A stretch of 64,000 nt of DNA from Arabidopsis thaliana (Eukaryota > Streptophyta > Magnoliopsida > Brassicales > Brassicaceae), in assembly GCF_000001735.4 (NCBI RefSeq), contig NC_003074.8:8308101-8372100 (forward strand), read 5' to 3'. This document shows, one piece after another, positions 49,513-64,000 of the stretch (position 1 is the stretch's first letter; every line of letters starts with the position of its first letter). Position numbers and translations under genes: made by a program. Below the pieces are notes generated by a model. The model was not told the DNA's origin. It made no database searches and worked only from the letters and a program-made list of their open reading frames with translations.

Positions 49513-52500
49513 ATGGCCATTGCTCGTTTACTTTCACCCAAATCAACTCCTCAATTCAACAATAGAGGTGATAACACATAATACCCTTTTTCTAAATCTT
49601 CTTAATTTTTCATTCATAACCCAAAAGATTCTCATTTTGCAATTTTTAAATGTGGGTTTAATTGATATTGACGATTCTGGAAACAAAATTGGTTTTTGAT
49701 TACAGGTTTTGTAATTTTGACGAGGAGGTGGTTATCTTCTTCTCTTGAGGATGGTCGGAAATGTGAGAGATTGTCAGATTCTGAAGCTTCCACGAACAAG
49801 TGAGTATGCTTAAATGGGTTCTGTGTGGAGAATTGTAGTGAAGTTAGAATCTTTTTTTGTCATCAGAAGAAACTGAGTAATGGGTTTTGATTAATCTTTA
49901 GTCTCAGTGAAGAGTAATGAAGCTACACTTAGAAACCAAATCTGGAAATGGGTTTTTGCTTGGAGTTTGTGGTAGTTTGATTTAATTCATGCCTTTGTGT
50001 CTTTGAACTGTGAGTGGATTTTCATAGATTAACTTACTGATTCAGTTCTCATGTTAATTTGGGTGATGCATTGTTCTTTTTTTTACTTTTTGATTTGTGA
50101 TAATTTTCTCATGTGTAGAGATATTGGACAAAAGGTAGTGCATTGGTATTCTTTGGGAGGTTTAATTAGTAATCTAAAGCAAAAGATTATGGGAAACGTA
50201 ATTTTGATGGACAAAAGTTCTGGTGAAGACTCGGTTTTGCCAAAATCGCCAATGGTTTCCTCATCAGATGTGGCTGTTACGAAAGTGGTGACCTTGAAGA
50301 ACGTTGCAGAAAGCGAAAACTGTATCCATTCGAGTGTAAAAGAAGAAATTGGATCTGAAGATGCATCTCAAAGTGTTGCTGCGGATAATAAGATCTGTAT
50401 CACTTCGAGTATAAAAGAAGAATCTTTTGTCTCGGAAATGGGATCTCAAGATGCATCTCAAAGTGTTGCTGTAGAAAACAAGAACTGTATCTCTTCTAGT
50501 ATAAAAGAAGAATCTTCAGTCTCTGAAATGGGATCTCAAGATGCATCTCAAAGTGTTGCAGGAATTGAGGCTTGTGGGAAGAGAGAAAGCATAACTGTAA
50601 GTAATGACAGATTAGGTAATATTAATAGGTTAGATGGCTTGGAGTCTGGGCAGGGGAAGGTGTTGAGATCAATACGCACTGAAAGGGTGGATCCTTCTGA
50701 GGAACAAAGTTCTAAAGATGTCACTTTAGGTTTCTTGACTGAAGAAGTATCGGAAAGTCAGACATCATCTAGGAAAAATATGGGGAAGTTGCAGCCTGCG
50801 AAAGGGCTATTCGATAAAGTGAAGCCACCTCAAAATAGTCTCTCGAAGTTGTTTGTAAACTCGGATCCATATAAAGAGGTTAAGCATCCTCTGAGATTTG
50901 AGACTTTGAGTAACAGTAATTCCAGTATGTCTACTGGAGAATCCTGTAGTGATGCAGGTGATCAACACAGCCTATTTGGTAAGATGCTGTCTGATCCTGT
51001 CCAGGAAATTAAAAGTATCCCCAACGAAAATGATGAGCACAGGTTGTCGGATGCTCCTCAAAATCTCAGCTCTTTGACATCCGTTCTATTAAGGGATTGG
51101 ATTGATGAACAGAGGAGTGAAGACCTGGCTGCTATTAGAGAAAGGAAAAGTATATTTTCGCTTGAAAGTTCTAGAAACACTGTTGCACCTATGGCAGTGG
51201 GTACTATGAAGAAGTTGATGGACTCCCTTAACTTTCCAACTGACAATGGCACAGATGCAGAAGCCAACTCGTTGAATTCTAATAGTAGAGAAGAGAAATG
51301 GATATCCGAAGGCAATTCTGCAATGCAAAACAGTGATCGTTTTTGTGCGATAGAGGAAGAAGAACCCCAAGGGGAAACTTTTGTAATGGAAACCCAATCA
51401 TTGTGCAGTCAGGACACTTTGGACGCTACCACCGTGAATCCTAAGGTAACAAAAAAGAGTTTCTTGGCATTATCTGCTGGAGAACACTCTCCTAACAAAG
51501 TACTGCTAAGGTTTTTGCCAGAATCATCTATGAAGAAACACATTGTTAAAGCGTTTTCTTCTCAGTTTGGAGCCGTTTTGCATGTACAAGAAATTCCCTC
51601 TATTGAAGGGTGCATTTACAAAGATGCTCTCTTAACTTTTGAGGTTAGTATTTTGAATTTTGAATTCTCCATCTCGAGAAACAAGTCACACTGCCTTCTT
51701 GTTAAACTTTCTTCTTAAAAAGTGTTTTCCTGCTCACCTGCTATTTGCTTCCATATTTGTAGACTAACACTGCAGTCAAGAAAGCTCTCAAGAAAGGCCA
51801 TGTGACGGTGATGAATTACAATACAGTTGTCGAGGCAACTTCTCAGGAAGACATGGTAGAAAGGATTTGCATTCCGGATCTCATTGGCGATCCAGATGTG
51901 CCTGTTGCATTGGTGAAGGAACCAGCCCGAACAGTTAAGATTCATCCACTGACGCACGATTTTAGTTCAAATCAGATCAAAGAAGCGCTAAAGTTCTGTA
52001 GGAGCAACATATCTAAGTTTACCTTGGGTTCATCGAGAACAGATGCTTTCGTGGAGTTTGAGGTGTGGTTTTATTGTAGCTTTTCTTGTTTTATCCTCAA
52101 AATCCAATGCCAGATACAGTAAAGATAAATCTTGTACTTGTGTTGCAGACGGAAGACGGCAAAGAGAGAGCACTTGCGGAGCATTCAATCAGCATATGCA
52201 ACACACAATTGTTTATCTCGAGGATTGATATACCGAGGACAATCGTGGCAAGGATTTCAAACTTGTCGAAATCAGCAATGAGAGATGTACGAGCATTGTG
52301 TGTACCTTATGGACAGATCAGAGGGGTGTATATCAGGGGAACTGGTGTTGCGGATGTGTTTTTCGATATCTCTGAGTGGCCAAACATGCTCGCCATTCTC
52401 AACAGGTAGAACCATAAACCAGAACATCCATTTTCTCAACATAACAAGTGAAAGTCTTGACCCTTGTTTTGTGTGTTCTTCAAACAGCATGAATGGTATG

Positions 52501-52692
52501 GAGATAGATGGTAAGAAGTTGGTGGTTCGACCTGCAACAACAGTAATACCTCCTGAAATATTGAGGGTTTTGTGGAAAGATCCTCGAGAAAAGAGATATG
52601 TGAAAAGTGTAATTCAGAATCTGGTGAGAGAGATTGAGCAGCCTTTAGATGCAACTCGTTGCCACACACTTATAACAGAATTACTACTATAG
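49513..52692 (+). CDS. RRM RNA-binding protein with probable mitochondrial presequence
   Basis: Six exons: 49513-49567, 49706-49799, 50119-51643, 51763-52062, 52149-52405 and 52488-52692, giving 811 aa. The N-terminus (MAIARLLSPKSTPQFNNRG, then ILTRRWLSSS) is Arg/Ser-rich without acidic residues, as in mitochondrial presequences. A long acidic, Ser-rich, probably disordered region follows. It contains tandem repeats of about 32 residues built on CIxSSIKEESxVSEMGSQ and DASQSVA. The C-terminal 300 residues hold two or three RRM-like folds: KVLLRFLPESSMKKHIVKAF, then RTVKIHPLTHDFSSNQIKEA, then RTIVARISNLSKSAMRDVRA. No known function is assigned. Its last exon and 3' UTR are the source of several degenerate copies in the downstream array. 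Possibly At3g23370; the locus number is uncertain. Confidence 0.85.
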
Positions 52693-53148: not shown

Positions 53149-53158
53149 TATATAAATG
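53149..53158 (+). promoter_or_regulatory. TATA box of micropeptide gene 1
   Basis: TATATAAATG lies 118 bp before the ATG. Equivalent TATATAAATA boxes precede the other genes at 54518, 56614, 58721, 61358 and 62905, 101-118 bp before each start codon. Each is followed by AATG-TTGTAAGAAG-like and then AACGTTTTGCCAACTTC-like leader sequence in the A-type genes. Conservation of box, spacing and leader is direct evidence that these are promoters. Confidence 0.7.
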
Positions 53159-53266
53159 AATGTTGTAATAAGAGATAGAAGAAGCAACAAGAAACGTTTT
53201 GCCAACTTCAAACTCCATTTCTCACCTAAGAAAACGTGACATCTTTTAGTTATTTTACAAATTACA

Positions 53267-53383
53267 ATGGACCTTATAACGGCAGCTACTGTCATTGCAG
53301 TTTTCCTCGTGGTTATTGTGGGTTATATCATTTTGTATTGCATCGAAGGCACTAACAAGGACATGAACGAGACTAATGCGTGA
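53267..53383 (+). CDS. Micropeptide gene 1: 38-aa single-pass membrane peptide
   Basis: ATG-initiated frame of 38 codons in one exon, starting MDLITAATVIAVFLVVIVG. A hydrophobic segment covers about residues 3-26, followed by a short polar tail (EGTNKDMNETNA). It has one juxtamembrane Cys (Cys25). The start context, TTACAAATTACAATGGA, is the same in genes 1-4 and 6. No signal-peptide cleavage site is obvious, so it is probably a membrane-anchored micropeptide. It lies 575 bp after the RRM gene, the ancestral location. Its tail is read in a different frame from genes 2, 3, 4 and 6, stopping at TGA beyond their TAA. I recognise no family and assign no function. Confidence 0.6.
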   Translation: MDLITAATVIAVFLVVIVGYIILYCIEGTNKDMNETNA

Positions 53384-53514
53384 AGGCGACGAGACATATG
53401 GCAGACGAAATCTTTTTTTTTATGAAATATTTAAATAATTTTTAATTTGTGACATTTATGTGTTTCAGTTTCACTATTTATAATTTCTCAATTTAATCAA
53501 TATTTTTTTTTAAC

Positions 53515-53860
53515 GTAACTACATAGCTTCATGTACCTCAAATTATTGCTTTTAGTGATATTGATGAACTAATTATTATTTGCTTCCATATCGTTTTCAT
53601 TTTATAGTGAAATATTTTCATTAAAGAAGATTGTATCTCAAGTCTTAGAATTATAGGCTAGAATCAACGTTTTGATAATACCCATCAAAGAAAAGTTAAC
53701 CTACATAGTTTAAATTGTACTCGAGAGAACAATGAGGGAGACAGAATTAAAAAACTTAAGTCATTCTTTGGTATGCCCAAAAAAGAGTCGAGGTTGCCAA
53801 ATGATACGTAGATTATATAGTTAGGGGTAAACATTTGAAGTTTTGAACTATGTCGGATGA
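53515..53860. pseudogene. Unit-1 remnant of RRM 3'-flanking sequence
   Basis: CTACATAGCTTCATGTACCTCAA (53518-53540) and then TTTTGATAATACCCATC and TTGGTATGCCCAAAAAAGAG match the RRM-fragment 3' flank in later units. The coding part of the fragment is missing here, so this unit has lost more than the others. Confidence 0.6.
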
Positions 53861-54630
53861 AATGCAAGCTCGTGAGGGTGCGTGGAAATAGTACTACGTC
53901 ATTTCTACAAGAGGAAGGAAACTTACAAAATGAAGGCTTTATTTATTTATTTGGTATGTTTCACGAATTAATATATTATAGTTAGGGATAACATTGGACT
54001 ATGTCAGATTATATGATAATTAAACTTTACATTAATACATTTATCATCTTTATATACAAACTCTATTAGTTGTAAATCTTAAAATTTATTATAAGAGATT
54101 TGGTTATTATTTTCTTTCATGTATACATTAAAATTTTAAATTTCTAATAATTGAAGAATTATTTGTTTTCTTCCAAATCTATATATGGAAAGTACATGAA
54201 GGAGAAGTTTAAATATTATGTGATGGAATTCAATTGAAAACCTAAATGTAAAATGAAATTATATTTGTAAAATTATATAAGAATATAAGTGAATTGCCAA
54301 AAATTAGCTTAATTTCATAGTTATGTTTTGATGAAAATTTGATTCTTTTTACTTAAAATTTAAGAAATTAATTCAAAAGTTTAACGTGCTTTCTGTTTTA
54401 TGGAAAAACATATTGCGTACCCAATTACTACTGTTAGACACATGCAATATCAAATTATCAATAAATTGCGATTCTTTCAAACCATACAAAAATTCCTTTA
54501 AAATCTATTGTACTGTGTATATAAATAAATGCTGTAAGAATAGATAGAAGCAAGAAACGTTTTGCCAACTTGAAAGTCCATTTCTAACCAAAAAAAACGT
54601 GACATCTTTTAGTTGTTTTTACAAATTACA

Positions 54631-54750
54631 ATGGAACTATGGATTATAGTGACATTATTAATTTGCTTTGCAGTGTTCCTCGTGGGGATTGTGTGTTCTT
54701 TCCTTTTGTGTTGCGCCGGAGTGTTTTCCAAGGAACAAGACGGAGACTAA
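54631..54750 (+). CDS. Micropeptide gene 2: 39-aa single-pass membrane peptide
   Basis: 39 codons, starting MELWIIVTLLICFAVFLVG. The membrane segment spans about residues 4-27. A CC pair (27-28) follows, then AGVFSKEQDGD. The Glu2/Leu3/Trp4 start, the CC pair and the terminal GD are shared with relatives in the array. The Lys-then-acidic tail suggests the C-terminus lies on a defined face of the membrane, and adjacent Cys residues next to a membrane segment are common S-acylation sites. Both are inference. TATATAAATA lies 113 bp upstream and the leader matches the other A-type genes. Confidence 0.65.
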   Translation: MELWIIVTLLICFAVFLVGIVCSFLLCCAGVFSKEQDGD

Positions 54751-55011
54751 TGCGAGAAGGAAACATCTATATGGCAGAAAAAAACTCTTTTATGAAATAT
54801 TAAAATAATTTTTAATTTTTCACATTTATAATTTCTCAGTTTAAAAATTTGTTGGAGTTGTTGTTAACTACTATAAAAACTCGTTTTAAAAATTCTATAA
54901 TAACTAGTTATCTAATATCTATTAGCAAAAATAAACAACAAAATACTATTTGAATCAAGTGGTGTAATGAATTTATTATGGTTAAGAACTTTTTTTTTTT
55001 GAATGGGTAAA

Positions 55012-55190
55012 AAATACCTCCCAAAACTTTGAAAACTTTGTGGGAACATCCTCAATACAAGAAATACGTGAGAAATATTGAGAAGCCTTTAGATCTAGCC
55101 ACATGCAATTTTGGCCTTGTGTAGGAGATATACTACATAAATTCATGTATCTCAACTCATGAAGATTATACGCAAGAGCCATTGTTTTGA
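55012..55190 (+). pseudogene. Degenerate copy of the RRM gene last exon and 3' UTR (copy 2)
   Basis: Readable as PKTLKTLWEHPQYKKYVRN then IEKPLDLATCN, aligning with the RRM ending PEILRVLWKDPREKRYVKS and IEQPLDATRCH after a gap of about 18-24 nt. The 3'-UTR match continues through TTCATGTA, CAACTCATGAAGATTATA and GAGCCATTGTTTT. It is too short to encode a domain. It marks the left boundary of the duplicated segment. Confidence 0.75.
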
Positions 55191-55943
55191 TAATACCCAT
55201 CGATCGAAAGAAAAAAATCCTACATACGGAATTTTATTTAACTCGAAAGATCAATGAGAGATATGAAATTACAATACAAAGATCCTTTTTTGGTAGGCTA
55301 AGGGTCGAGGTTTCCAAATGGTACATAGATTATAATTAAGGATAAACATTTGACTACGTCAGATGAAATAATAAATGTTAGATTATTGCATTTGTGATAT
55401 TTTATACAAAAACATTAATTTGGAGCTAAAGAGATATATATTAAGAAGTTTTTTTTTAATTATTTCATTTATATATATATATATATATATTGTAAATAAT
55501 TGAAAGTTTAAAATTTAGTTTTAAACTTATAAAATTTATATACAATATGGAAATGAAATCTGTATTTTTGAAACTATTTAAGATAAACCATATAATTACT
55601 AGAAATTAGCTTTTATAGTTTTATGGATGAAACTTTTACTATGTGGGGTGATTTGATAGAAATTAATTAGATTATTGCATTAAGAATGATTTTTGATACA
55701 AATAGCTTAACTAATTTAAAAAATCTATATTTTAAGTGACATTTTAATTAATTTAATTTATATATTCAATAAAACAATTCCAAGAATTGAGAGACAATAA
55801 ATTTTAATTTTAAAATTCATAAAAAACTATATATGGAAAGGAAATCTGTATTTGTAATATTATGTAAATATGTATTAGCTTTTATAGTAAACTTTTGAAG
55901 AATATCAATTCCTTTAACAAAATTTTAATAAATTAACTCAAAA

Positions 55944-56145
55944 CTTTAATGTGCTTTGTGTGTTTATTGCAATTGATACACATCATGGATACTCAATTAT
56001 TGCTAGACATAATTGCAATAAATTTTGATTCTTAAAACCATGCATGCAGAAGCAGATGTCCTATATATAATAAATGAATGTTATAAGAAGAGAGATAGCT
56101 AGGCAGGAATCTTTGGACATATAATAGACTTTTGTACATTAAATA
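55944..56145 (+). pseudogene. Gene-less B-type micropeptide promoter slot 1
   Basis: Sequence from TGTGCTTTGTGTGTTTATTG through CATGCATGCAGAAG, a TATATATAATAAATG box near 56063 and GGACATATAATAGACTT matches the promoter and leader of micropeptide gene 5. It then jumps into the shared AT-rich spacer where the gene 5 ATG would be. The coding part has been deleted. Confidence 0.65.
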
Positions 56146-56714
56146 CATTTGTGATCTTTTTATACAAACTCTATTAGTTGTAAATCTTAAAATTTATTAT
56201 AAGAGATTTTGTTATTATTTTCTTTCATGTATATATTAAAATTTTAAATTTCTAATCATTGAGGGATTAATTTTATTCTTACAAATTTATATAAATTTGG
56301 GAAAGAATTTTAAATTATTATGTTTATGGAATTCAATTGGAAACCTAAATGTAAAAATGAAATTATATTTGTAAACTTATTTAAGAAGAAAAGTGAATTT
56401 CTAAAAACTAGCTTAATTTTATAGTTATGTTTTGATGAAAATCTGATTCCTTTATCGAAAATTTAAGAAATTAATTCAAAAGTTTAATGTGCTTTGTGTT
56501 TTATGGATATACACCATGCGTACTCAATTACTGTAGGATACAATATCAAATTATCAATTTATTGTGATTCTTTCAACCATACAAAAATTCCTATAAAAAT
56601 CCAATGTACTGAATATATAAATAAATGTTGTAAGAAGGGACAGAAGCAAGAAACGCTTTACCAACTTCAAACTCCATTTCTAACCAAAAACTTTTAGTTG
56701 TTTTACAAATTACA

Positions 56715-56831
56715 ATGGAACTGATTATAGTGGCATTAGTTATTTTTGTAGTGATACTCGTGGCGATTGTGGGTTCTTTCTATTTTTGTTGCCCCGGATT
56801 GTGTTGTTCCAAGAAAGAAGAAGGAGATTAA
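56715..56831 (+). CDS. Micropeptide gene 3: 38-aa single-pass membrane peptide
   Basis: 38 codons, starting MELIIVALVIFVVILVAIVG. The membrane segment covers residues 3-24. The juxtamembrane motif is CCPGLCCS (25-32), four Cys in two pairs, followed by KKEEGD. It is nearly identical to gene 4, differing at three residues. The TATA box at 56614 is 101 bp upstream. The CCPG-CC motif is the most Cys-rich in the array. Confidence 0.68.
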   Translation: MELIIVALVIFVVILVAIVGSFYFCCPGLCCSKKEEGD

Positions 56832-57112
56832 TGCGAGAAGGAGAAGTCTATATGGCTGAAGAAATCTCTTTTATGAAATATTTAAATAAATTTTAATTTG
56901 TGACATTTGTTTTTTAATTTCTCAGTTTAATAAATTGTTGGAGATTGTGAACTATGAAAAAAAAAAAGCAAATAAAAAAAACTAGTTTTCAAAATTCTAT
57001 AATAACTAGTTATCTAATATCTACTAGCAAAAAAAACAAAAATAATATATGCATTAACTGGTGTAATGACTTTAGAATGGTTAAGAACTTTTTCTTCTTT
57101 TTTAAAATGGTT

Positions 57113-57300
57113 AAAAAATACTTCTCGAAACTTTGAAGCCTTTGTGGGAACATCTTCATTACAAAAAATACGTGAGAGGTATTGAGAAGCCTTTACATCT
57201 AGCCACATGTAATTATGGCTTTGTGTGGGAGATATACTACATAGCTTCATGTACCTCAACTCATGAAGATTATAGGCAAGAAAAGTTATGATGATACCTA
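57113..57300 (+). pseudogene. Degenerate copy of the RRM gene last exon and 3' UTR (copy 3)
   Basis: Carries CTTTGTGGGAACATC, AAAAATACGTGAGAGG and GAGAAGCCTTTACATC, in the same order as copy 2 and the parent exon. The 3' flank includes CTACATAGCTTCATGTACC. Frameshifted and non-functional. Confidence 0.75.
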
Positions 57301-58050
57301 TCGATCGAAAGAAAAGTTACCCTACATACGGAATTTCATTTTACTCGAAAAGAGTTATGAATGATACGAAATTACAAAATAGAGGTCCTTCTTTGGTATA
57401 CCCAAAAAGAGTCAAAGTTGCCAAATGATACATAGAACATAGTTAAGGATAAACATTTGACTATGTCGGATGAAATAATAAACGCTAGATTATTGCATTT
57501 GTGATATTTTAAACAAAAATGATTTAATTTGGAGCTAAAGAGATATATTTTAAGAAGTTTTTTTTAATATTATTATTTCATTAATAAATATATATATATA
57601 TATTGTAAATAATTGAGAGTTTAAAATATAGTTTTAAACTTAAAATTTTTATGTACAATATGGAAATGAAATCTGTATTTTTGAAACTATTTAAGATAAA
57701 CCATATATTTACTAGAAATTAGCTTTTATAATTTTATGGTTGAAACTTTTACTATGTAGGGTGATTTGATAAACATTAATTAGATTATTGCATTCAGAAT
57801 GATTTTTGATACAAATAGCTTAATTAATTTAAACAATTCTATATTTTTAAGAGACATTTTAATTAATTTAATTTAAATATTCAATAAAAAAATTCCAAGA
57901 ATTGAGAGACTAAAAGTTTTTATTTTCAATTCATAAAAACTATTTATGGAAAGGAAATCTGTATTTGTAAAATTATGTAAATATGTATTAGCTTTTATAG
58001 TAAACTTTTAAAGAATATCAGATTCCTTTAAAAAAAAATTCATAAATTAA

Positions 58051-58260
58051 CTCAAAATTTTAATGTGCTTCGTGTGTTTCTTGCAATTGATACACATCAT
58101 GGATACTCAATTACTGCTAGACATAATTGCAATAAATTTTGATTCTTTAAACCATGCATGCAGAAGAAGAAGTCATATATATATAATAAATGAATGTTAT
58201 AAGAAAAGAGATAGCTAGGGAGGAATCTTTGGACATATAATAGACTTTTGTACATTAAAT
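58051..58260 (+). pseudogene. Gene-less B-type micropeptide promoter slot 2
   Basis: Nearly identical to slot 1, with the same gene-5-like promoter and leader and the same breakpoint after GGACATATAATAGACTTTTG. The shared breakpoint shows the loss happened once, before the unit was duplicated. Confidence 0.65.
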
Positions 58261-58821
58261 ACATTTTTGATCTTTTTATACAAACTCTATTAGCTGTAAA
58301 TCTTAAAATTTATTATAAGAGATTTTGTTGTTATTTTCTTTCATGTATACATTAAGATTTTAAATTTCTAATCATTGAGGGATTAAATTGTTTCTTACAA
58401 ATTTATATAATTTTGGGAAAGAATTTTAAATTATTATGTGATGGAATTCAATTGGAAACCTCAATGTAAAAATAAAATTAAACTAATTTAAGAAGAAAGG
58501 TGAATTGCTAAAAACTAGCTTGATTTTATAGTTATGTTTTTATGAAAATCTGATTCCTTTATTGAAAATTTAAGAAATTAATTCAAAAATTTAATGTGCT
58601 TTGTGTTTTATGGATAAACATCATGCGTACCCAATTACTGTAGGACACAATATCAAATTATCAATTCATCGTGATTCTTTCAACCATACAACAATTCCTA
58701 TAAAAATCCAATGTACTGTATATATAAATAAATGTGGTAAGAAGGGATAGAAGCAAGAAACGTTTTACCAACTTCAAACTCCATTTTTAGCCGAAAACTT
58801 TTAGTTGTTTTACAAATTACA

Positions 58822-58938
58822 ATGGAACTCATTATAGTGGCATTAGTTATTTTTGTAGTGATACTCGTGGCGATTGTGTGTTCTTTCTATTTTTGTTGCC
58901 CCGGAGTGTGTTGTTCCAAGAAACAAGAAGGAGATTAA
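58822..58938 (+). CDS. Micropeptide gene 4: 38-aa single-pass membrane peptide
   Basis: 38 codons, sharing MELIIVALVIFVVILVAIV with gene 3. It then has CSFYF and the CCPGVCCS motif with a KKQEGD tail, adding a Cys at residue 20 where gene 3 has Gly. TATATAAATA at 58721 lies 101 bp upstream. The three differences from gene 3 are all replacements, with no stops or frameshifts, so the frame is either young or maintained. Confidence 0.68.
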   Translation: MELIIVALVIFVVILVAIVCSFYFCCPGVCCSKKQEGD

Positions 58939-59210
58939 TGCGAGAAGGAGGCATCTATATGGCTGAAGAAATATCTTTTATGAAAAATTTAAATAGAGTT
59001 TTAATTTTGTGACTTTTCAGTATAATAAATTGTTGGAGGTTGTGAACTATGATAATAAAAAACAAAAAAAAACTAGTTTTTAAAATTGTATAATAACTAA
59101 TTATCTAATATCTACTAGCAAAAAGAAACGAAAAATACTATATGGATCAACTGGTGTAATGACTTTAGAATGGTTAAGACTTAAGAATTTTTGTTTTTTT
59201 TTAATGGTTA

Positions 59211-59286
59211 AAAATACCTCCGGAAACTCTGAAGGCTTTGTGAGAACATCTTCAATACAAGAAATACATGAGATATATTGAGAAGC
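59211..59286 (+). pseudogene. RRM last-exon copy 4, left part (split by insertion)
   Basis: Matches copies 2 and 3 up to ATATTGAGAAGC. The next expected bases (CTTTAGATCTAGCC) appear only at 60133, after the insertion at 59287-60132. Confidence 0.75.
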
Positions 59287-60132
59287 TATGATATGATTAT
59301 GAATAACTCTTGGACATGTATTCATTGTTTTAGGCGTATCTGCTAAATGACGAAGAATCAATGCACGAAACAACTTGGAGAACTCCTCGAAGAAGAATCA
59401 AATCAAACAAATATCAGATGAAGGAGTTATTCAATTTACAAATCAGGTGATCTCCAGTTTACCGGATTCAGACATGCGCGCATTCAACGAAAGATTCCGA
59501 TTATACCAGAATGAATTAAGCTACAAACCGAATTAGTCTATAATCTTGATCTATTAGAGATGCCCCAAAAAGTGGAATAAGCCCAAAAACAATCAAGAAA
59601 GATCTATTTTCATCCACAACAAAGACTGCATAATTTTGTCCATTTCTCTCTCTTACATACACTTTAGAGATTGAATTGCATCTCCCAAAATGCTTTGCAT
59701 GTTGAACTATTATTATGGACGTTTTTTTGATGTATTTTCCCTTTATATAATGAGTTTATCTCATGAATAATAAAATAAGCCTTTTTGATATTTTTGGAAT
59801 CTTTTGAGAGTGTTTATTATTTCTTGTCAGTGGTTGTCAATGGTGCGTAATATTCATTGGTTTGGTTAATGGTGTGTAATATCAATGCACGATCCGACTA
59901 ATTGCGTCATATCCAAGGGGTCTTGTAGAGAGTGATTCTCATTTCATCCTCGAATTCGTCTTAGTGTGTCATATCTAAGGGATTCAAGTTCGGTAAATTA
60001 AGAGTCTTCCGCAGCTCTTGTGTGACCATTCGCTCCACCATTCTTATCTTTCGTAGTTTAACTTTTTCATTTAGAATCTAAAAAATATCTTTACACCGAT
60101 TTAGAGTGCCGACTCTTTGAAAGATTCTCATC
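59287..60132. mobile_element. 846-bp insertion, possible solo LTR
   Basis: Cleanly splits RRM-exon copy 4. Sequence from TGATATGATT near 59289 to ATTCTCATCA at the right fits TG...CA termini. It contains a TATATAATG promoter-like box near 59736 and AATAATAAAATAAGC near 59767, as LTRs often do, and its base composition differs from the surrounding array. No 5-bp target duplication is visible, so the class is uncertain. No protein is encoded. Confidence 0.5.
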
Positions 60133-60240
60133 ACTTTAGATCTAGCCATATGCAATTGTGGCCTTGTGTGGGAGATATACTACATAGCTTCATGTACCTC
60201 AACTCATGAAGATTATATATGCAAGAGCCATATTAACCAT
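60133..60240 (+). pseudogene. RRM last-exon copy 4, right part
   Basis: Continues the interrupted fragment with TTTAGATCTAGCCATATGCA, then CTACATAGCTTCATGTACC and CAACTCATGAAGATTATA, as in the other copies. Confidence 0.75.
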
Positions 60241-60403
60241 CAATCGAAAGAAAAGCTATCTTACATACAAAATTTTATTTTACTTGAAAGAGCCATGAGT
60301 GATACGAAATTAGAAAACAAAGATCTTTTTTAGTATGCCCAAAAAAGGTCGAGGTTGCCAAATAGTCATAGATCAAAGTTAAAGATAAACATTTGACTAT
60401 GTT

Positions 60404-60644
60404 ATTCGGGAGCTTGTGGTCTAGTGGTAAGGAGACGGGCTTGGGACGCTAACACGTTTCAAGTTTAATTTACTTGCTGAGTGAAAATTCAACACATTTT
60501 CCTGGACACCCGCATGGATATGGGCTCATACTTACGGCCGAGTTGAATATCTGGAGATAAGGATTATCTATGGGCTGCACCTCCCTCAAAGATTAGTATG
60601 GACCTTCCATAGGTTAGGATCTACTCGGAGTTAACAAAAAAAAA
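60404..60644 (+). mobile_element. tRNA-derived SINE-like insertion, copy 1
   Basis: Begins ATTCGGGAGCTTGTGG, with a pol III A-box-like TGGTCTAGTGG near 60417. The B-box region is degraded (TTTCAAGTTTAA). It ends in an A-rich run (60635-60644). It is inserted into the unit signpost ACATTTGACTATGT, part of which reappears after the tail (CGTTTGACTATTT), like a target duplication of about 12 bp. Confidence 0.65.
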
Positions 60645-61473
60645 CACGTTTGACTATTTCAGATAAAATAATAAACAATATATTACTTTATTTATAATCT
60701 TTTATAAAAAAATAGACTAAATTTAAAGCTAAAGGGATATAATACAAGAAGTTTTTTTCTATTATTTCATTTATATATGTTGTAAAATTTTCAATAATTA
60801 AATGTTTGAAATTTAGTTTCAAACTTAGAAAATATATACTCATACCCAAAAAAGAATTAAAAATATATATATACAATTTGGAAATGAAATATGTATTTTT
60901 AAAACTATAGCTCTATGAATTAAATAATTTGACTGTGGGATGATTTGGTAAACATTAATTAGATTATCGCATTAATAGTGAATTTTTAATACGATAGCTT
61001 CATTAATTAAAAAGTTCAATCTAATTTTTTAAGAGATCTTTGTAATTAACTTCATTTATGTATTCACTAAAAATTACCAAGAATTGAGAGTATATAAATT
61101 TAATTTTTAAAGTGCATTTAAAACAAAACTATTTATGGAAAGGATCTATATCTTTGTAAAAATATTTAAATATATATTAGCTTTTCTCATTTTATAGTTT
61201 TATTAGATTCCTTTTAATTTTTTTTAATAAATTAACTCAAAAGTTTAATATGCGTTGTGTGTTTATTTGATACACATTATGCATACCCAATTACTACTAG
61301 ACACAATTGCAATAAATCGCGTTTCTTTCAACCATGCATGCAGAAGAAGAAGTTCTATATATAAATAATAAATGTTATAGGAAGAAAGATAAGCAGGAAA
61401 CATTGGACATACAATAGACTTCAATATCCATCTCTAACCGAAAAAAGAAGAGATCTCTTGAAGTTATTTTACA

Positions 61474-61602
61474 ATGGAAACCTGGATTGAAATCATAATA
61501 GGCATTGTCATTGCACTGGTCCTCGCGGTGATTGTGTTTGGTTTCCTTAAGTTGCTCGGCGTTAAGTTCTCCAAGAAAACAACGACAACAACCGATGCGT
61601 GA
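61474..61602 (+). CDS. Micropeptide gene 5 (B-type): 42-aa single-pass membrane peptide
   Basis: 42 codons, starting METWIEIIIGIVIALVLAVI. The membrane segment runs about residues 7-25. The tail is basic and Thr-rich: KLLGVKFSKKTTTTTDA. There are no Cys residues, unlike its neighbours, but the S-K-K position aligns with genes 3 and 4. The promoter is the B-type (TATATAAATA at 61358, CATGCATGCAGAAGAAGAAG upstream), of which two gene-less copies exist. The stop TGA is in the same place as in gene 1. It is the only surviving B-type gene in the window. Confidence 0.6.
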   Translation: METWIEIIIGIVIALVLAVIVFGFLKLLGVKFSKKTTTTTDA

Positions 61603-61996
61603 AGCAAAACATCTTATTTGGGAAGTTGTTGACTATAATAAAAACTAGTCCTGCAAATTATGTAGATATAATCATATAAGTTATAATTAAGAAATAAAGT
61701 AAATTACCAAACTATATATTTAAAATATATATACATTGTACATAGTGGTTACTGTGTATGCATACTATTTTTCTCAATAAGATGATTAGAATTACTTATG
61801 GCTTTCCTAAAAAAAGAAAAAACCGTATCTCCCGCATTTGCCAAAAAAACGACTCGCAATCATCTTAAAATAAAATTGAAGAAATTGCATTGAAACCACC
61901 AAATAAGGGAAAATCTTCTGGCTATCCGTTGACTGCCAACTTCTACATCCAATAATCATCCGCCACGTAGCTTTTATATATAGAAGTTTAAATGTT

Positions 61997-62613
61997 TGAT
62001 TGGTTATATTGTAAGTGCCATTTACAGCCATATTATTTTTGTAAAGACCAAATTGTTTTTAATCATGTTGTAGTTTTGTTTTTAAAGTTACAACCAAAAA
62101 AATAAAAAATATTTTTGTTTTGACCGTAAATCTTTAATTTTCTATATCCTATTATTTTGTGTTGTAGGTTGTTCTTTTTCTTTCTTCTCTAATTTTTTGT
62201 CACGATTATTTTCAACTAATAATCTAAAATATAGTTATATGAATAACACAGAAAGTATTTTATACATTTAGATAAATGATTTATATATTTATATAGATTC
62301 CATTTACCTAGATGTGCATAATTCAATTTTTATTTTTATTATATAATTGTTTTTAAATAATTTTACTAATTATGATATATAATTTTATTATTTTAAAAAT
62401 ATAATTTATAAATACAAAAATACAAATTTAAATATTTATTAATCATAATTTTTAGTTACAATTAATAAATTTATTTATAAAATCCTATATTCTTTAAATC
62501 TACAAAGTCAAAAAGTTATAGCCAAGATTTACAATCATATTTAAATCTAAAGCTTACACACTTATAGCCAATATTCTACAGCAAATAATCTACATCTATA
62601 GTCTAACCAATCA
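61997..62613. mobile_element. Short-terminal-inverted-repeat element in the array
   Basis: TGATTGGTTA at 61997 and its reverse complement TAACCAATCA ending at 62613 bound 617 bp of AT-rich DNA not found in the other units. The unit sequence resumes at AAATTATTATGTGATGG directly to the right. The interior near the right end has TGTAGATTATTTGCTGTAG on the minus strand, common in Arabidopsis hAT-like MITEs. No target duplication found, so the call is tentative. Confidence 0.4.
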
Positions 62614-63017
62614 TCCACTAAATTATTATGTGATGGAATTCAATTGGAAATCTAAATTTAAAAATGAAATTATATTTGTAAACTTATTTAAGAAGAAAGG
62701 TGAATTGCTAAAAAATAGCTTAATTTTCTTGTTATGTTTTGATGAAAATCTGTTTCCTTTTACTTAAATTAATTCAAAAGATTAATGTGCTTTGAGTTTT
62801 ATGGATAAACATCATGCGTACCCAATTATTGTAAGACACAATATCAAATTATCAATTAATTGTGATTCTTTCAATTAATTACCTATAAAATCCACTTTGT
62901 TGTATATATAAATAAATGTTGTAAGAAGAGATAGAAACAGGAAACGTTTTGCCAACTTCAAACTCCGTTTCTAACAAAAAAAAAACGTGATATCTTTTAG
63001 TTGTTTTACAAATTACA

Positions 63018-63134
63018 ATGGACCTATGGATTATAGTGATATTAGTTATTGTTGCAGTGTTATTCGTGGCGATTGGGTGTACTATCAGTTGTTGTTGCCC
63101 CAGAGTGTGTTCCAATGAAGAAGACGGAGACTAA
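63018..63134 (+). CDS. Micropeptide gene 6: 38-aa single-pass membrane peptide
   Basis: 38 codons, starting MDLWIIVILVIVAVLFVAIG. The membrane segment spans about residues 3-24. A Cys-rich juxtamembrane stretch, CTISCCCPRVCS, follows, then the acidic tail NEEDGD. It combines the DL start of gene 1, the LWIIV of gene 2 and the CCP-VC motif of gene 4. TATATAAATA at 62905 lies 113 bp upstream and the AACGTTTTGCCAACTTC leader is present. The tail lacks the Lys pair of genes 3 and 4. Confidence 0.66.
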   Translation: MDLWIIVILVIVAVLFVAIGCTISCCCPRVCSNEEDGD

Positions 63135-63405: not shown

Positions 63406-63595
63406 AAATACCTCCCAAAATTCTGAATGTTTTGTATGAACATCCTCAATACAAGAAATACGCGAGAGATATTAATAAGCCTTTGGATCTAGGCACATGC
63501 AATTGTGGCCTTATGTGGGAGATATACTACATAATTTCATGTACCTCAACTAATGAAGATTATAGGCAAGAGCCATTGTTTTGATAGTACCCATC
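63406..63595 (+). pseudogene. Degenerate copy of the RRM gene last exon and 3' UTR (copy 5)
   Basis: Same layout as copies 2-4 (AATACCTCCCAAAATTCTG, CAATACAAGAAATACGCGAG, AAGCCTTTGGATCTAGGCAC), continuing into CTACATAATTTCATGTACC and GAGCCATTGTTTTGATAGTA. Non-functional. Confidence 0.75.
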
Positions 63596-63755
63596 GATCG
63601 AAATAAAAAGTACCCTACATACGGAATTTATTTTACTTGAAAGAGCAATGAGTGATACGAAATTACAAAACAAAGGTCTTTCTTTGGTATGCCCAAAAAG
63701 GGTAGAGGTTGCCAAATGGTCATAGATGATAGTTAACTATAACCATTTGAATATG

Positions 63756-63948
63756 TTATTCGGGGCTTTGCGGCCTAGTGGTAAGGAGACGGGCTTGGGA
63801 AGCTAATACGTTCCAAGTTCGATCTACCTGATGCGCGAAACTCCAAACACATTTTTTTGGATAGGAACCATCTATGGGATCCATCTCCCTCAAAAGTTAG
63901 ACTGGACCCCTCCATAGGACTCGAATCTACTTTGAATTAAAAAAAAAT
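63756..63948 (+). mobile_element. tRNA-derived SINE-like insertion, copy 2
   Basis: Better-preserved partner of the 60.4-kb copy: TATTCGGGGCTTTGCGG, an A-box-like GCGGCCTAGTGGTAAGG, a B-box-like AAGTTCGATCTACC near 63817, a body with TCTATGGGATCCATCTCCCT, and a final A-run. It sits at the same position of the repeat unit as copy 1. Confidence 0.68.
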
Positions 63949-64000
63949 GATTATGTTAGATGAAATAATAAACAATAGATTATTGCATTTATGATATCTT

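Follow-up and report, generated by a model that had tools for sequence, protein, structure and literature searches.

A tandem array of seven short open frames in Arabidopsis thaliana, probably encoding single-span membrane micropeptides

When short open reading frames recur in tandem along a plant chromosome, are they genes, or do they stay open by chance? The question is raised by a cluster of such frames in Arabidopsis thaliana, within the 64,000-base stretch of DNA analysed here (C3:8308101–8372100; hereafter the window). A sequence-only reading of this stretch had described six tandem frames encoding membrane micropeptides. All six are present between positions 53267 and 63134, with their starts and stops as had been given (38, 39, 38, 38, 42 and 38 codons, by position), but the copy number is seven: a further frame of 42 codons, B2, begins 781 bases beyond the window end, in the adjoining stretch (L005). 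These seven intact frames, named A0–A4, B1 and B2, lie in one cluster and are the family members considered here. As B2 turned up outside the window after the claim had been made, it was counted in favour of real genes. Throughout the array, both the open frame and the hydrophobicity of the encoded peptide have been retained, and the frames are in our judgement very probably protein-coding genes.

The chance expectation was taken from 3 Mb of composition-matched random DNA, read on one strand, in which only 2 of the 1301 open reading frames of 36–45 residues had a best 19-residue hydrophobicity of at least 2.8. Across the array region, counting both strands, 7 of 21 frames of this length reached 2.8, and these are precisely the members of the family; the remaining 14 stayed at 2.19 or below. 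The A1–A4 copies were also compared as aligned blocks, with frames of at least 25 codons that occur in one copy or more tallied over both strands by start column (pairs with B2 were left out). Of 14 such frames, the reported one alone is open throughout A1–A4 and ends at a shared stop column. In contrast, an open frame in the promoter spans 33, 64, 46 and 25 codons in the four copies. Another frame or the antisense strand was considered as the true coding frame and rejected, since the other 13 frames fail; the closest of them, a minus-strand frame, stays open in three copies.

Within A1–A4, all three gaps in the coding part are divisible by three (3, 3 and 3 bases), against 3 of 27 in noncoding DNA (one-sided Fisher, p = 0.005). 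Neutral evolution of the frames was simulated using a tree and an insertion/deletion (indel) rate derived from the 225-bp upstream alignment, without gene conversion between copies; as the upstream 225 bp may itself be constrained, the test is conservative. Under strict criteria, all seven frames were open in none of 4000 neutral runs started from A1, A3, A4 or B2 and in one of 4000 started from A0; with substitutions only, the corresponding figure was 0.1–1.6% of 1000 runs. Under a lenient criterion of length only, with all seven copies used as starting points, the frames were all open in 9 of 7000 runs; halving the indel rate raised this to 19, and quartering it to 45, again of 7000. The ORF control and the simulations make chance open frames unlikely: an ATG-started open frame has been kept across homologous copies beyond chance. 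The proposal that the frames stayed open while their flanks gained indels is supported by this control, by the gap counts and by the simulations.

That proposal needs qualifying near the end of the frame. The copies show no frameshift in the membrane part, but there is one net shift in the tail, which separates A1–A4 from A0 and the B copies. The last codons of A0, B1 and B2 are in one frame, ending GCG or GTG then TGA, whereas those of A1–A4 are in a different frame over homologous DNA, ending GAC or GAT then TAA. Part of the tail divergence is therefore a frame switch, because homologous DNA is read in two frames, and the switch appears from the sequence to have given a new C-terminal tail.

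All seven peptides have a best 19-residue Kyte–Doolittle mean of 2.87–3.54 and each is predicted to hold one strongly hydrophobic helix. The retention of this property was compared with drift in simulations where stops were forbidden, the starting copy was varied, and either the promoter tree or a coding-scaled tree was followed. On the promoter tree, depending on the starting copy, 0–8% of drift runs held the observed minimum hydrophobicity and 0–13% held the observed mean; on the coding-scaled tree, the values were 0–0.3% and 0–0.7%. For most starting copies tried, hydrophobicity is thus held above the neutral expectation, an outcome unlikely under drift.

The peptides share a plan of an acidic N-terminus (2–6 residues), one hydrophobic stretch and a short tail, with about 6–17 residues left after the helix. 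In a structure model of A3 the helix covers residues 2–25 and the tail is disordered; the mean predicted local distance difference test (pLDDT) score is 77, with 93 and 95 in the first two ten-residue blocks and 67 and 48 in the rest. These predictions agree with the one-segment membrane topology that had been proposed, and the products are probably single-span membrane peptides. A1–A4 have 4–5 cysteines, mostly at the membrane edge, while A0 has one and B1 and B2 have none. The tails of B1 and B2 contain four lysines each, giving net charges of +3 and +2. In the B helix, glycine or alanine residues four apart can be seen in the sequence.

The explanation that we favour, to which we give a probability of roughly 55% as a whole with its mechanism taken loosely, is that the array encodes single-span membrane micropeptides that serve as small helix partners of larger proteins. 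Each gene would be served by a separate TATA-type promoter with a short leader and would give a 38–42-residue single-span membrane peptide with its tail facing the cytosol. S-acylation could occur at the cysteines that A1–A4 carry in a cluster at the membrane edge, and in the B helix the small residues spaced by four could form a packing surface for a second helix. By binding to the membrane-embedded portion of a larger protein (a pump, a channel or a receptor kinase), the peptide would tune that protein, with fast exchange among hydrophobic residues tuning the choice of partner. The partner-tuning role is the tentative part of this scheme and draws on analogy. According to PMC6521590, the yeast small proteolipids Pmp1p and Pmp2p associate with the H+-ATPase and their double deletion halves its specific activity, showing that the design of a small membrane partner can work; for the single Candida gene of this kind, the same source reports no phenotype. 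Like the array, Pmp1/Pmp2 are small membrane peptides with more than one gene copy, but the likeness is one of working only, as Pfam gives no link in sequence family.

The copies were then compared at the protein level using the ratio of replacement to synonymous substitution rates (dN/dS), fitted with a codon model under the base composition of the flanks and, in a second fit, under coding base frequencies; the data sets overlap and the p values are for single tests. In joint fits A0 was cut at column 28, beyond which it is out of frame with A1–A4, and the B rows were cut after column 36. By our own reading, the alignment of A with B at the membrane edge can also be made with compensating 2-base indels, and because of this ambiguity columns 1–24 are the safer set. 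With flank composition, fitting A1–A4 gave a dN/dS of 3.2 (p = 0.03; 40 columns) or 3.3 (p = 0.06; 28 columns). For the six copies A1–A4, B1 and B2 it was 4.0 (p = 0.0009), or 2.6 over columns 1–24 (p = 0.04), and on adding A0 it was 1.3 over columns 1–24 (p = 0.44) and 1.8 over columns 1–28 (p = 0.07). Simulations under a dN/dS of 1 were as extreme in 0 of 100 cases for the six copies and 1 of 100 for A1–A4. Coding frequencies gave 2.8 for A1–A4 (p = 0.06; 2.8 over 28 columns, p = 0.11), 4.7 for B1–B2 (p = 0.08), 3.0 for the six copies (p = 0.004), and 1.7 (p = 0.09) and 1.6 (p = 0.18) for all seven. The underlying counts are small: A1 and A4 differ by 0.5 synonymous and 19.5 replacement changes, and B1 and B2 by 1.5 and 13.5. 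A0 shows the opposite pattern against A1–A4, with dS of 0.62–0.78 and dN of 0.33–0.44.

The sequence-only reading had pointed to dN/dS and frameshifts as the quantities to examine. Among the array copies dN/dS is mostly above 1, or 1.3–1.8 and not significant with A0, which does not indicate purifying selection, and the membrane part is free of frameshifts. Protein-level selection in the form of a dN/dS below 1 was not found among the copies, although it is not a necessary feature of such genes. Divergence of A0 from A1, A2 and A4 was also compared between regions. The coding part diverges more than the downstream spacer against A2 (p = 0.03) and A4 (p = 0.01), though not significantly against A1 (p = 0.28). 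Set against the promoter, the coding part is the more diverged of the two whichever of the three copies is used (p = 0.0002–0.002). The promoter in turn has diverged less than the spacer in each case, significantly in one (p = 0.005; the others 0.31 and 0.18). Residue divergence equals or exceeds that of noncoding DNA. Neutral drift of the frames is nevertheless unlikely, and we read selection as acting on the open frame and hydrophobic character, with residue replacement free or favoured, rather than as sequence conservation.

Several points weigh against the explanation of a family of small helix partners. Transcription, translation, topology, acylation and partner binding are steps that we infer. 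In neither set of fits did dN/dS fall below 1 (1.3–4.0 with flank composition; 1.6–4.7 with coding frequencies). The three coding gaps are less striking because 7 of 17 gaps in the 225-bp upstream alignment of the seven copies are also divisible by three, and the strength of the frame test lies in the whole family, because A1–A4, taken by themselves, stayed open in 333 of the 7000 neutral runs under the lenient criterion. The drift test of hydrophobicity has its weakest case with A3 as the start on the promoter tree, where the minimum was kept in 8% of runs and the mean in 13%. Lastly, the positive-inside rule clearly supports a cytosolic tail only in B1 and B2, because the tails of A0–A4 have net charges of 0 to −3; for the A class, the sequence weakly suggests a cytosolic orientation.

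Tandem turnover together with dN/dS above 1 is typical of arms-race loci. Because the array shows copy turnover and dN/dS above 1, the main rival is that the peptides are membrane-active defence or conflict peptides, in which the helix disturbs or marks the membrane or the copies are arms-race recognition determinants. A role of the defence or signalling type had been put forward tentatively in the sequence-only reading and is still putative. The excess of replacements in A1–A4 and in the six copies, the duplication and loss of units, and the divergence of A0 coding sequence beyond that of the spacer against A2 and A4 all fit this. However, the excess depends on few synonymous changes and is gone over columns 1–24 once A0 is included, the contrast between coding part and spacer is not significant for A1, and the tails of A0–A4 are not cationic; we consider this explanation unlikely. 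Somewhat less likely still is that the array is a membrane-embedded recognition locus, in which the single helix would be a variable, positively selected specificity element, staying hydrophobic and in frame while its residues reshuffle. The helices would then pair with, or evade, membrane partners that are themselves diverging, whether in immunity, in reproduction or in a toxin–immunity conflict.

dN/dS values that are not below 1, and the complete loss of the coding part from two copies, would also suit tandem promoter copies or noncoding RNA genes whose frames are open through chance and recent ancestry. The frame, indel and hydrophobicity tests make this improbable, and the window gave no Rfam match and no tRNA. 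Weakest of all are secreted precursors of the SCOOP/STMP type, with the hydrophobic stretch as a cleaved signal peptide and the tail as the active peptide: SCOOPs are likewise small Brassicaceae peptides with partly tandem genes (twelve on Arabidopsis chromosome 5) but are defined (PMC8448819) by a C-terminal SxS motif that none of the seven array peptides contains, and the array peptides start with acidic rather than basic residues and have so little sequence past the helix that this origin is very doubtful.

Homologues were sought in the genome (7 contigs, 119,662,809 bases) using the peptides A0, A1, A3, A4 and B1 (A2 and B2 were left out) and two DNA queries. These five peptide and two DNA queries found no array copies elsewhere, except for one weak match with an E-value of 1.4 and two stops. 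The sensitivity of the peptide search was low: A0 retrieved no other copy, and B1 just B2. Divergent relatives may therefore exist elsewhere in the genome. In a set of 5.8 billion proteins, the matches were the array's own A4 and B1 and a 55-residue protein containing B2, and no orthologue was found. Metagenome proteins identical to A4 or containing B2 came from contigs of which the longest was, for both, 30,981 bases; most simply, these are DNA of the same plant within a metagenome.

The family had not been recognised from its sequence, and Pfam and NCBIfam likewise gave only sub-threshold matches, none of the seven peptides matching at the curated cut-offs. Among solved structures a single match (E = 0.048) was obtained, to membrane cofactor protein at its membrane segment only, and was taken as chance. 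The CYSTM, RCI2/PMP3 and DVL/ROT4 families were absent for all seven peptides among Pfam hits up to an E-value of 1, a range in which the HMMER filters remove most matches above about 0.1. CYSTM proteins are also small with one membrane segment, and the edge cysteines of A1–A4 resemble theirs, but A0 and the B peptides differ in their cysteine content. ROT4, as described in a review (PMC12983248), is like the array copies a very short stand-alone gene in intergenic DNA, whereas the array is a tandem family. Searches of the open-licence literature, including part of PMC7902599, showed nothing on the array; supplements fall outside this scope, and the result says nothing on annotation. We file the array as a new family among intergenic plant micropeptide genes. 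If translated, it would offer seven parallel micropeptide copies, in a plant genome that is probably the most closely studied of all, and a compact system in which to follow the duplication and divergence of a gene some 40 codons long. The keeping of frame and hydrophobicity at a dN/dS of 1 or above is unusual and would suggest selection on membrane-helix character and not exact sequence; a dN/dS filter alone would throw out such genes.

The promoter regions are also alike. In each of the six in-window copies the nearest TATAWA match lies 101–120 bp 5′ of the ATG; a TATA box at all six had been predicted correctly, with a range of 101–118 bp that is slightly too narrow. The 19-base leader and start TTTTACAAATTACAATGGA is identical in five copies, as had been noticed, and its next-best matches genome-wide carry 2 mismatches. 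The start context ACAATGGA is common to all seven. By eye, CATGCATG occurs at about 53109, 56043, 58155 and 61334, positions that fall within the promoters of A0, of both relics of the B unit (Table 1) and of B1; it is altered in those of A1–A4 and B2. We take it to be an RY-like motif, which would presumably mean seed expression.

Table 1. Positions of the array copies and associated features in the window
Feature	Position	Strand	Remarks
A0, outlying copy	53267..53383	+	38-codon frame; nearest TATAWA 120 bp 5′ of ATG
A1	54631..54750	+	39-codon frame; nearest TATAWA 113 bp 5′ of ATG
Relic 1 of B unit	55945..56131	+	Self-comparison; also matched by B2 DNA query
A2	56715..56831	+	38-codon frame; nearest TATAWA 101 bp 5′ of ATG
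Relic 2 of B unit	58057..58247	+	Self-comparison; also matched by B2 DNA query
A3 (copy modelled)	58822..58938	+	38-codon frame; nearest TATAWA 103 bp 5′ of ATG
Insert between A3 and B1	59287..60133		Partial copies elsewhere in genome
B1	61474..61602	+	42-codon frame; nearest TATAWA 118 bp 5′ of ATG
A4	63018..63134	+	38-codon frame; nearest TATAWA 115 bp 5′ of ATG
B2 unit, beginning	63481..64000	+	B2 frame at L005:781-909 (C3:8372881-8373009), past window

Self-comparison shows the array to be built of A and B units, all in the same orientation: A0; A1 and a B relic; A2 and a B relic; A3 and B1; A4 and B2. Each relic consists of a B promoter with some of its leader, lacks the coding part and stops where the following unit starts (56131/56135 and 58247/58251). 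We read the history of the array as a probable tandem duplication of a ~2.1-kb segment, with the junction inside a B leader. The insert that separates A3 from B1 is probably mobile-element sequence, since it recurs in part elsewhere in the genome: twice on C5 (79%), once on C3 (73%) and once on C1 (84%, last 230 bases).

On one side the array is flanked by a stretch with long open frames at 50033–52692, of which four pieces were tested and gave no Pfam match. On the other is a gene with a P21-Rho-binding domain (L005:2018–2155), which we take to be RIC5. An element resembling a short interspersed nuclear element lies at 60400–60645 and 63754–63861, an equivalent place in both B units. Its start is tRNA-like by eye, it has relatives on C4 (two), C1 and C5, and from its placement it seems to be older than the duplication of the B unit.

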